Below, piece after piece: positions 39,201-48,200 of a stretch of 64,000 bases of DNA. The translations under genes and the position numbers were made by a program. Within the stretch, counting starts at the first letter, position 1, and every line of letters starts with the position of its first letter. The notes beneath the pieces are model-generated. The model saw nothing but the letters and a program-made list of their open reading frames with translations. It was not told the origin of the DNA and made no database searches. This DNA comes from Pogonophryne albipinna. Lineage: Eukaryota > Chordata > Actinopteri > Perciformes > Artedidraconidae. Where the stretch lies: positions 980,607-1,044,606 of the forward strand of contig CM053251.1 in NCBI GenBank assembly GCA_028583405.1, read 5' to 3'.

Positions 39201-42200
39201 TTTTAAGACCGCGGAGTCTACACATGTGCAGCCTCGAAATTTCTCCAAACGAAGTACGCCGGTCTCGGTAGAATTCCAAGTATGCTGGACATTGGAACAG
39301 TCCTTCGGCGGCACTCGATGACATAGTATGCTTGAAATAGTGGCTCTGGAGCAGCTTTACTCGAGATTGAGAAACACCCCATGTCATGCAACGCACTTGC
39401 AAGACGGCAGTCGCAATTGCGCAGGTCTGCGTCGGTCTCGCTCATCTCAAACAAGCCTAATATCTATCCCCCACCAACAAGCCCCACCCACTTAAATCCC
39501 CTGCTCTATAAGCCCCGCCCACCACAAGTCTGCTTCTTCCCTACATGTCAACACACACCAATAATATTCACCTTTTTATCTACATACAGTTACTTCTGCA
39601 GAGTTCTCAGAGGATTTTGGGTCTTTTTTTGTATTCCTAGATGTGATTATTTTCAGTTAGTTTGAGTTGTTTTGGTTCTTGATAAACTAGAGCTGCACAA
39701 TTATTCAAAATGACATCAAAATCCCTACATGGACTAGTGCAATATCCAAATTGCAGTAAGCACAATATTTGATAAATGCAGAATATGTGAACATATCTGT
39801 ATGATGTATTGCAGAGCTGCAGATAAGTCCTGGCCTACAAACAGGTCTCTACAGACTTAATGATTGTTGTAACTTGTTTTATTTAAGGCAGTAAAACATT
39901 TGATTATTTGATTTCTTGATATAAGTTAAAAGGTACGTTTCACAAGAAATGCTTTTATTTTGACTGTGCTTGACACAGCGGATACCACAGCATCAGTACT
40001 TCCACTGTCGGCATCTGGTTTAGCTTCACTTTGATCACAAACTGACTGGTGATGTAACCTTTGATTGTTACGGATCCATTTAATACAATTCAAGCCATTC
40101 TGAAACTTCAGTCAAAAAGAATCCAAATGAGTTATTTGCATCCAAATTGAGCAGCCCTATGATAAAGAGTGTTATTCTACAATGCTTTGCACAACATAGG
40201 AAGTGAAGGAGCTACTACTTGCTACTTCAATGTAAAACAAATACAGAAACAACTTGATGAAAATTAAGAAAACTATAAAATTGCAATTTATTCTCTAGAC
40301 CAGGGGTATTCAACTCAAATTCAACGAGGTCCAGTTAGAGAAAATGTCCCCATGCAAAGGTCCGGAACATCAAAATGTGTGATATTGAAGTAGCTGTAGC
40401 TTTATCAACGTCTGCATGTAATCAACAGCTGACTGCCAATCAAATAAAGAAAGTACAATTCATAAACAACAACAATATTTATTGTCAATTAACATTGAAC
40501 TCTACAGATATACAGTAAATACTGTGGATATGTGTAATGTTCCTCTCGGGCTGCATTTACAAATAAAATATAGAAAATAAATAAAATAGCTTTTGAAGAT
40601 ATGTGCATCTTAAAAGTGCTTAATTTTAGATAAATAAAATAAAGTGTAGCAACAGCTTGAGTTTCCCTTTTTCTTGCTAACCGTTTCACATCATGACTTA
40701 ACAGTTTCAGACGATTATATAACAATATCAGTCTTTACATCATAACAATTGAACAGTTTTAAAGTTTCTCTTTCTTTCCCTCTTATATTGCAGCCCCTCA
40801 CTCACTTTGTTTTATTCAGTGCGAGAATTGAGCTTAAATCTGGGCTGAAATGGTGTCAGGGCCATTCTCATACACACATGCAGGTGCTCATTGGTTAGCC
40901 TCGGTTAGCCTCGGTTAGCCTCGGTTAGCCTGCCCTGGAACGATATTTAGTTTTAATTTTGATCCTGGTGGACTGATCATATCGGGCTCTGAGGCTGCTC
41001 ATCTGACCTCAGTTCTGACTTGAGAGGGAATGTTTGGTCAAACACTTTGTGCTTTGTCTCATAGTGGCGTTTTGTCTCTTTTAATGAGCGCCACGGTCTC
41101 TGAACAAATGAGACACCCTGGTTCTGTGCTCCCAGTGGGCAGGATGAACATGAATGAGTCCACTCAGGGTTCATAGCTCTGTTCTCACTGTCCTCTTTCC
41201 TCTTCTTGGAGAGCGCCATGTGTAATTATTTGTCTCTCCCTGTCTGCCGCTAACACGCCTGTTCACTCTCCTCTCCGTCTTCTCTCCCTGTATCGCTAAT
41301 TATTCTCTTCACTCACTTTCCTCTCCGCTTCTCTCTGCCGCGCTCTCATCTCTTCTTCTGTGTTTCTCTCCCTGTATCGCTCACTCCTCTCTTTCGCCCC
41401 CTGTCGGCGGCGGTTCAAATAGAATCGCCCCGTCAAGATTGAAATCCCCTATTAATGTTTTGATTATAGGTCCACCTGTTACTGAACTATGCTCTAGACT
41501 AACGTCTTGATTTGTTTTGATATTGAATTGCCAATAATCCAACATTTACCAAATTGATAAATATTGGTGCACTTATTGCCAATTATTTGACTTTAAGACA
41601 AATTGGTAAATTCTGTAAATTATTCACAATTAGTTATTATTTCTAAATTGAGCAGCCCTATGATAACGAGTGTTATTCTTCAATGCTTTGCACAACATGG
41701 GAAGTAAAGAAACTTCTAATAAAATGTAAAACAAATTCAAAAATAGCTCCAGGGAAAATCTGAAGATGTTAAAGCTAGAATTGAATGTCTCAAAAAACAT
41801 TCTTTCTCTTGATATGTAATTGGCAATAGCACTCCAAGGCTTACCAGATTGATAAACATTGGTGCACTTTTAGCATATTTTTTGACTTTTAAGACAAAAT
41901 GGTGAAAGCTGCACGAATGCATTACCACCAAGGTGTAAAATATATATTTGTAAATGCTACAAATGCAAGGCTCCTACCACCATGACTTTGTTAAAAACTC
42001 TCCTACAGTACGTCGTCACATCCATTGCACCCTGGCATTAGTCCTCTTCCCTCTCCTCCCCCTCCTCACCCCTCTGTGTGCACATCATAAACACTAAGCT
42101 CTTGCTGTCCAGGCCTACGTGGGATTACTGGAACTTTCTGAGGCACGCAGCAAATATAGCGATCTGTGTATCCCCATGGTCATGGTCCCCGCCACCGTCT

Positions 42201-45200: not shown

Positions 45201-48200
45201 CACACACTTTACAGAGCTGCATCTTCATGGTCTCAGTTTTAAAGAAGTACTCCCTTTACTTGTGTCCTTAAACCCTGGTGGACTTGAGGAATAAGTTCAC
45301 GTACTGACCTGATAACATATTTAAAACTAAAATTACAAATATTTATTGATCTTTTCAGGGTTTGGACGGCTCATAAAAATTTGTATTTTTTTTCCAATAA
45401 TGGAAAAGTTAGTTTATGTCATGCTTAGCAACTGCACAAATGGTATAATTAATGCGAAAATTAGTATCTAAAACATTCCCTAATGAAGGAGGAATTGGGA
45501 CACACCTTAATTTACAACAAATACAATATCAGTACTGAAGGAAACAAGTAAAGGCAGCCACTGAGCACCATGAAGCACCTCGGCCTCCATCACAAAGACA
45601 CCTTGAGATACGATACGATGATACTTTATTGGTCGGATCAAGTCTGACATGTGACTTGCTTCACAGCAGCTCCATGTGTAGCATCAACAGACACATATCA
45701 AGACACAATACAACAAACAACAAACATTTAACATAACAGCTGGATCAGTGAGAGAAAACCTGCTCAAAGAGCCTTCAGCGTGCATTCGATCTGGATTCAG
45801 CTCTGTGTTTACTGTGAGGACTGAAGGATGCTTCAGTCTTTATGGTAGTGTGCCCCCTGGTGGTCTAACCCTGTATCGCGGCCTCCAGGCCTTTGAGTCC
45901 CTCCTGAAGCTGTTCGAGGCCCGGCTCCACCACGAGGAGTTTTGTATCCCGATGTGCATGCTGCCTGCGACGATTAGTAACAACGTGCCGGGCACCGACC
46001 TCAGTCTCGGAGCCGACACGGCGCTCAACGCCATCGTGGAGGTAAGGGCCAGAAAAGAGATCAGAAACAAATCACAGTTACCTCTCTTATTATTTACAAA
46101 TAAATACTATTTGAACCTATGGAGAAGCCCTGATAGCAGGAAGGAAATCTGCAATCTGTGAGTACAAATATTCCTGATGAACCAGACAAGAGAACTCTAA
46201 TTCCCAGAATGCACCTGCATGTCAGTGACTGTTGTATTGATGATGTTGACCTGTGTGTTCCTGCCAGTGTGTGAGTGAAGCTGTGTTTTAGAGGAGTTCA
46301 CCGGGACATGTTTTTATTTCTGGATTGTAAAATGTTTGCCTTCTGTTCTGTTGATACCAGATGTTTAAAGTCAGTTAAGGAGTTTATTGTCCTGATAAAT
46401 ATAACTGGAATTATAAAACAGGCCCAGTATGCACAGGGTAACTCTGGCGCATTCACAAACCATCAGAATTTCAGATTGTTTAAAATATGGGATTCTGACC
46501 CACCATTTGTCTGCATCTTTCTAAGGCCGTGAGATACCGAACATTCAATTATTTTAGACCCACAAAAAAATGACAATTCTTTATTTGAAAATATTTGATG
46601 GTGAGCAAAGTCAATCATTTTGAAGAGAGCATACCTCAAGTTTTTCAATTGTTGAACCCCATGACACTTGTTTTTAAGTTTTCCAACATCATTGGTAGCT
46701 TTCCTGTCATTGAGTAGATTTGCAGGTGAATAGGACAATGACTCACATTCAAATGTATACCAACGAGTCATCAGGGTTCTTACGGTCATTAAAAACCTGG
46801 AGAAGTCATTGAAATTCAAAATGCTAATTCCAGGCTTTGGAAAAGTCATGGAAATGTAACTAAAGTTGCATCAAATATAATTTATATTTTATCTAATCGC
46901 CAAAATAGTAATACTATAATGATAATAAATACTGTATCGTAATGAAACGTAAAATGGCATTTAACTGTCGAGGTATTTTGCCGGTGAGAGATTTGAGGTG
47001 CTTTAGCGTGTAGAAGCTAGTAAGCCAACTACTTGATTTGTTTTAGATCGGCACAACATGTTTCAGACCTTATTTTCCTGTTCCATGTTAAAATAAACCA
47101 TTTTCAGTGGAACGCTGAGAAAGAGTCATTTGTTTTGGTCATGGAAAATTAGGTAAAGGTCATTGAGAAGTCATTGGTAAAAAGAGTATGAACCCTGGAT
47201 AATAGTAGAGGCTAAATGAAGTCTCCTTGTTAGTAAATGCTCCCACTGATGGCCTCATGTTATGGTCTGTAATCATCACTAAGGAGTTAACCTGTGCATC
47301 ACTGGGAATGATTGATCTGACTCTTGACCGGCATGAACTGCTAAAGGTTACTAAAGCTGTGTGTACTCGGTTTACTTTACTAAAGTAGAGCTGCAGCTGA
47401 TCAGTACCAACTATTATTGTTCAGATTATTAATTGTGTAGTTTAAAGACAAACATCTAAATTCCTATCAGTTTTCTTCAGCCCAAAATTCTGATTTACTT
47501 CGACTGGCCAAAACCAAAAAAAGTATTTCATTTGAACCCTCAACATTTTGACTTCATATGAAACGATATACAGACTTTGCTATGAATCATCTCAGCTCTC
47601 CTTTAGTGAACAGATCCTCCATGTTGTTGTTGTTGACTCTTTCATCTGCGTGTGATTCAGACGTGTGATCGCATCAAGCAGTCGGCCAGCGGCACCAAGC
47701 GCAGGGTCTTCATCATCGAGACGATGGGGGGGTACTGCGGGTACCTGGCCACCGTGGGGGGGCTGGCTTCCGGAGCCGACACCGTCTACATCTACGAGGA
47801 ACCGTTCAACATCCGGGACCTGCAGGTCAGAGAGACAGCTAAGATCACTCTGAGTGTTTAGTTATTAAAGGGGACCTATCGTGCTAAATCCACTTTGTCA
47901 CGTCTCTTCTACATCAACATGTGTCCCCTCTTCTTCATGTCTCTTCCACATCAACATGTGTCCCCTCTTCTTCATGTCTCTTCTACATCAACATGTGTCC
48001 CCTCTTCTTCATGTCTCTTCCACATCAACATGTGTCCCCTCTTCTTCATGTCTCTTCTACATCAACATGTGTCCCCTCTTCTTCATGTCTCTTCTACATC
48101 AACATGTGTCCCCTCTTCTTCATGTCTCTTCTTCATCAACATGTGTCCCCTCTTCTCCATGTCTCTTCTACATCAACATGTGTCCCCTCTTCTTCATGTC

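Follow-up and report, generated by a model that had tools for sequence, protein, structure and literature searches.

For human PFKP, Lam et al. (2021; PMC7954323) reported a mutually exclusive exon event with a likely effect on allosteric regulation, and a supplementary legend of that work gives a change from valine to isoleucine at the bisphosphate-binding residue 539. PFKP is also named among the tandem duplicated exon substitutions of Martinez-Gomez et al. (2022; PMC9741552), and a comparable case is PKM1/PKM2, again a glycolytic enzyme with an exon choice at the fructose-1,6-bisphosphate effector site (as described in PMC7954323). A word search for 'pfk' in the main text of two surveys (PMC5740500 and PMC4465641) gave no occurrence. 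We analysed a stretch of 64,000 nt from the notothenioid fish Pogonophryne albipinna (C10:980607-1044606 of a 1.07 Gb genome, here called the window), which holds the gene pfkp for platelet-type phosphofructokinase (PFK), a control enzyme in the breakdown of sugar, on its + strand and, between exons 15 and 17, two homologous exons termed A and B. Judging from the sequence, these are quite probably alternative copies of exon 16, one of which is joined between exons 15 and 17, which would change the effector site of the enzyme. The relevant part of the gene reads as follows:

37238-37325, + strand: exon 15, common upstream partner, 88 nt, ending in phase 0
42113-42265, + strand: exon 16A, 51 residues, TVSNN type, 153 nt, phase 0-0, AG/GT borders, best match PFKP (1.2e-24)
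42266-45888, + strand: A-B intron of 3,623 nt, a length beyond steric exclusion
45889-46041, + strand: exon 16B, 51 residues, TISNN type, 153 nt, phase 0-0, AG/GT borders
47661-47825, + strand: exon 17, common downstream partner, 165 nt, starting in phase 0

The original prediction had claimed such a tandem homologous pair, and its coordinates, lengths, phases and AG/GT borders were all recovered, as were the flanking borders 37325 and 47661. Both exons are adjacent, homologous, equal in length and phase and intact at their splice borders, as is usual for tandem duplicated exons, with 31 of 51 residues identical, 17/9/33 differences by codon position and donor scores of 84 (A) and 91 (B). Compared singly with solved PFKs, exon A led to human-type PFKP (1.2e-24) and exon B matched PFKP (1.4e-20) and PFKL (1.9e-20), and exon B agrees in 51/51 residues with an annotated protein of Chaenocephalus aceratus; chance is thereby excluded as the source of the likeness. 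The liver-type look ascribed to B was borne out by the closeness of these two values and by the exon-16 tree, in which B groups with PFKL (see below). It had also been stated that both copies keep every conserved motif residue. The PAT-x-SNN motif is indeed kept in A and B, but one residue inside it changes, from V to I.

This single change can be placed on the human protein. A PFK review lists the PFKP variant D564N (PMC12203962), and the aspartate of TCDRIKQS lies three residues past exon 16, with N at this position in one solved chain. Taking D564 as this aspartate, exon 16 corresponds to residues 511-561 and exon position 29 to residue 539, where A has V and B has I, covering the published ligand residue. 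The pair in the window therefore very probably corresponds to the published human event, with the same gene, a homologous exon pair and the V to I change at residue 539, although here it is found in a notothenioid fish with two pfkp genes and is matched via that residue (PMC7954323). It is thus a known kind of event already published in PFKP, and the novelty originally claimed for the pair does not hold, the human event being in print (PMC7954323, PMC9741552). With the tandem duplicated exons of PMC9741552 it shares adjacency, equal phase, ancient age and mostly kept ligand residues, whereas the examined parts of that paper are without mention of fish pfkp or of a link of A and B to PFKM and PFKL. 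The difference from PKM is that one PKM form lacks effector binding (PMC7954323), whereas the pfkp loop differs by V/I only.

In a predicted model of a B-only protein the exon comprises residues 509-559, with block means of 77-95 in the predicted local distance difference test (pLDDT); in its region residues 507-521 are helical and 530-535 form a strand, after which come the PAT-I-SNN loop and the first part of another helix. Regulated splicing would join A or B between exons 15 and 17, and this choice would alter the helix before the effector loop together with residue 539 within the loop; the altered effector site would then shift the response of PFKP to sugar bisphosphates. We infer an allosteric effect of the A/B choice on these grounds, and one-or-other use in P. 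albipinna is likely. Exclusivity imposed by frame, spacing or splice-site type was considered and rejected: the frame is preserved with A, B, both or neither included, the A-B distance of 3,623 nt in the window gene and 1,317 nt in a second pfkp gene on C21 is beyond steric blocking, and all borders examined are of the GT-AG kind. As none of these properties can enforce exclusivity, trans-acting splicing factors would be needed to set the choice, and as such regulation can leak, some joint A+B product is to be expected. A scan for splicing-factor motifs, covering 300 nt around each exon, gave no lead: the window has one TGCATG 175 nt past B and another inside B, but the C21 copies have none.

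Conservation was followed in annotated proteins. Searching with exon B gave 2256 proteins, of which 120 were listed, and a length-limited search gave 1870, again with 120 listed. Together the lists hold 223 different proteins, which were assigned to A/B classes by motif; the lists are enriched for two-copy proteins, since the scores of two copies add, and most entries are automatic annotation. The 223 comprised 139 A-then-B, 81 B-only, 1 A-only, 1 A-B-B and 1 B-B protein, and no second exon-16-like stretch was found in the 81 listed B-only ones. Such B-only proteins are annotated in many fishes, which makes a real A/B choice likely, and they (81/223 listed) fit the proposal that one gene makes two PFKs; strictly exclusive use is a weaker claim, as joint inclusion preserves the frame and 139 of the 223 hold both copies. 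Exon B, whose presence in related fish had been named as a check, was present there and in other vertebrates: A-type and B-type segments occurred in 37/37 vertebrate proteins (from 38 hand-picked to span taxa), covering teleosts, bowfin, sturgeon, frogs, turtles, lizards, a snake, a bird and mammals, so that the pair is at least of bony-vertebrate age. The C21 pfkp of the same genome also carries A and B, 153 nt each, open and with intact borders. Between the two genes the rates of nonsynonymous and synonymous change (NG86, dN/dS) were 0.10/1.12 in B, compared with 0.21/0.68 in A, 0.07/1.11 in exon 17 and 0.18/2.76 in exon 15. Mean identity was 0.84 for A and 0.75 for B in 35 species rows, and 0.83 and 0.81 in the 29 non-mammals. 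These divergences and identities agree with the selection on both exons that had been predicted; A and B both appear constrained, B less so in mammals, where relaxed or changed selection on B is suggested and A shows no such drop. As a separate observation, a fluke model (Calicophoron daubneyi, P0141, 344 amino acids) has two identical B-like exon-16 segments and another model of that species (P0262) has one; the doubling is probably a gene-model or assembly effect.

The origin of the pair was addressed by comparison with the other PFK genes. Both PFKM genes of the genome (C119, C12) have one 153-nt exon 16 of A type, and PFKL (C13) has one 153-nt exon 16 of B type; A and B thus have their counterparts in these isozymes, in which the segment is fixed by the gene, whereas pfkp holds both exons in one gene. 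Trees were built from rows hand-picked from 306 found proteins, with the P. albipinna genes and solved chains added. Residue 29 served to tell A rows from B rows, so that their agreement at this column is built in. In the exon-16 trees of 58 to 100 rows A grouped with PFKM (support 97/99, 100/99, 100/97) and B with PFKL (99/98, 96/97, 99/96); in the first of them, which had a single PFKM row, PFKL was placed among B rows of frogs. The rest of the protein (728 columns) gave PFKM+PFKL with support 98/92, PFKP+PFKM being rejected by the approximately unbiased (AU) test (p-AU 0.040) and PFKP+PFKL reaching 0.077. Grouping of exon 16 as A+PFKM and B+PFKL, with the remainder as PFKM+PFKL, is the pattern expected from a pair older than the genes. 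An A/B choice predating the three PFK genes, with PFKM keeping A, PFKL keeping B and PFKP keeping both, is therefore a tentative proposal, to which we would give a little less than an even chance; the literature search found no such proposal for PFK, with subscription papers thinly covered.

Duplication of A and B inside the PFKP lineage after the three-gene split, with the PFKL-like look of B and the PFKM-like look of A explained by retention or parallel change, is the reading towards which we lean slightly, despite the strong A+PFKM and B+PFKL support and the result for the rest of the protein. In its favour, an A+B grouping is not rejected: forcing it in the 58-row tree costs 18.7 log units (p-AU 0.099), compared with 13.6 for PFKM+PFKL (p-AU 0.125), and further tests of forced A+B gave p-AU 0.253, 0.195 (40 rows) and 0.236, with 0.092 in a tighter version. 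Simulation under A+B with a broad null reached the observed difference in 12/200 cases; a narrower null gave 0/60, which would speak against the later origin but was discounted as too strong a result. Among the invertebrate rows, position 29 is I in 14/14 and position 36 is T in 13/14, so that TISNN and PGTD look ancestral and by themselves do not link B to PFKL. The remaining exon blocks also disagree with one another: in a scan of 13 such blocks (fast analysis, LG+G4), 5 favoured PFKM+PFKL (one tie), 3 PFKP+PFKM and 5 PFKP+PFKL, with log differences up to 13, and their sum, favouring PFKP+PFKL by 19.6 over PFKM+PFKL, contradicts the 728-column tree, leaving a conflicting order of the three PFK genes. 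An origin before the genes is suggestive, with no significant test (AU p 0.09-0.25); against it stand the 51 columns, the use of three PFKM rows, this block conflict and the fact that B looks ancestral. The PFKL stretch, searched for a relic exon A, matched at E 0.05 only in exon 16 of PFKL itself and in exon 5, a related exon, and in PFKM the introns flanking exon 16 measure roughly 75-115 nt as judged by exon matches.

A second case of tandem homologous exons was seen in the C21 pfkp, which has two versions of exon 8 (L013 3972-3874 and 4394-4293, minus strand), with NRAGMKRLN like PFKP and TRSRGTRLN like PFKM/PFKL, whereas the window gene has one exon 8. The enzyme may have a further pair of alternative exons here.

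Several points weigh against A and B as functional alternatives corresponding to the human event. The human link rests on the printed residue change and on exon B of mammalian relatives (horse, deer, seal, cat, squirrel and opossum; human exon B is outside the lists). The effector loops of A and B differ by a single residue, so that any change in function could be minor. Furthermore, 139/223 listed proteins hold A and B together, and mean identity in 6 mammals (rows P0126, P0129, P0137-P0139 and P0232) is 0.65 for B versus 0.93 for A. The third point could mean that both exons are usually included together, giving a PFKP with a doubled 51-residue segment, as the preserved frame would allow and as the spacing of exactly 51 residues in 110/120 listed proteins of the first exon B search might suggest. 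We consider this unlikely given the 81 listed B-only proteins, the single copy in solved PFKP chains and the bias of the lists to two-copy proteins, whose long members may represent clusters. A+B and B-only forms are also annotated in one species, e.g. Lycodopsis pacificus (isoforms 2-T2 and 1-T1). A model of the joint Pagothenia borchgrevinki protein had a mean pLDDT of 72.9 versus 78.5 for B-only, a weak argument as proteins and alignments differ, and its residues 537-552 (the A loop) were below 50, which is likewise weak. That B is decaying, or is seldom used and contributes no separate function, would suit its lower conservation in the 6 mammals, but is very improbable given that both pfkp genes keep the exon open and its borders intact, on which, together with a dN of 0.10 at a dS of 1.12, a decayed exon was rejected, and given its near-equal identity to A in non-mammals.

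The remainder of the gene agrees with an intact pfkp. Exons 2-22 (15145-52738, + strand) splice to 757 residues, stop-free with either exon A or exon B. Over the full length the window protein scores highest against PFKP among solved structures (1372.7 bits), ahead of PFKM (1265.1) and PFKL (1200.3), and is placed within the PFKP clade with support 98/96. Its exon-B version shows 98.8% identity over 757 residues to an annotated protein of the icefish C. aceratus and 98.7% to one of Trematomus bernacchii. A pattern search for exon 1 inside the window gave no match because this exon lies outside, at C10:978900-979004, about 1.6 kb 5' of the window. The other exons are listed here; the spliced frame is open through exons 2-14, which match PFKP best, and open to the stop through exons 18-22:

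15145-15218, + strand: exon 2
18069-18146, + strand: exon 3
20899-21088, + strand: exon 4
23026-23191, + strand: exon 5
23432-23476, + strand: exon 6
23750-23858, + strand: exon 7
28080-28175, + strand: exon 8
28464-28556, + strand: exon 9
29189-29314, + strand: exon 10
29980-30044, + strand: exon 11
30330-30399, + strand: exon 12
32285-32431, + strand: exon 13
36514-36584, + strand: exon 14
50624-50685, + strand: exon 18
51257-51368, + strand: exon 19
51788-51887, + strand: exon 20
52106-52211, + strand: exon 21
52582-52738, + strand: exon 22, stop codon at its end

Within the introns, a minisatellite of 37 nt (27.9 copies, 96% matches) occupies 47898-48930 in intron 17, and minisatellite-like stretches at 21168-21965 (intron 4) and 23913-24358 (intron 7) match the same region of an upstream copy of the locus, indicating one repeat family in three pfkp introns. 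Intron 15 contains an inverted repeat (38827-38947 and 39259-39379) with 121-nt arms that are 93% complementary and 311 nt apart, which looks like a small foldback mobile element. The upstream copy, at C10:900101-942879 (loci L014-L018) 5' of the window, is a partial copy of window positions 1-42974 at about 95-99% identity, with exons 2-16A present (13/15 at 100%), 16B and later exons absent, and a gap of 1000 N following at 943607-944606; it is either a haplotype remnant left in the assembly or the product of a tandem duplication, recent and partial.

If the pair is indeed older than the genes, part of the difference between muscle and liver isozymes would have begun as a splice choice in one gene, which raises the question whether the effector-site segments of the muscle, liver and platelet PFKs derive from alternative exons of one ancestor. 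With an ancestral-exon origin, splice forms would have become genes, a question resolvable with more genomes. Fishes with two pfkp genes and the pair in both would also offer animals in which A and B could be removed singly.

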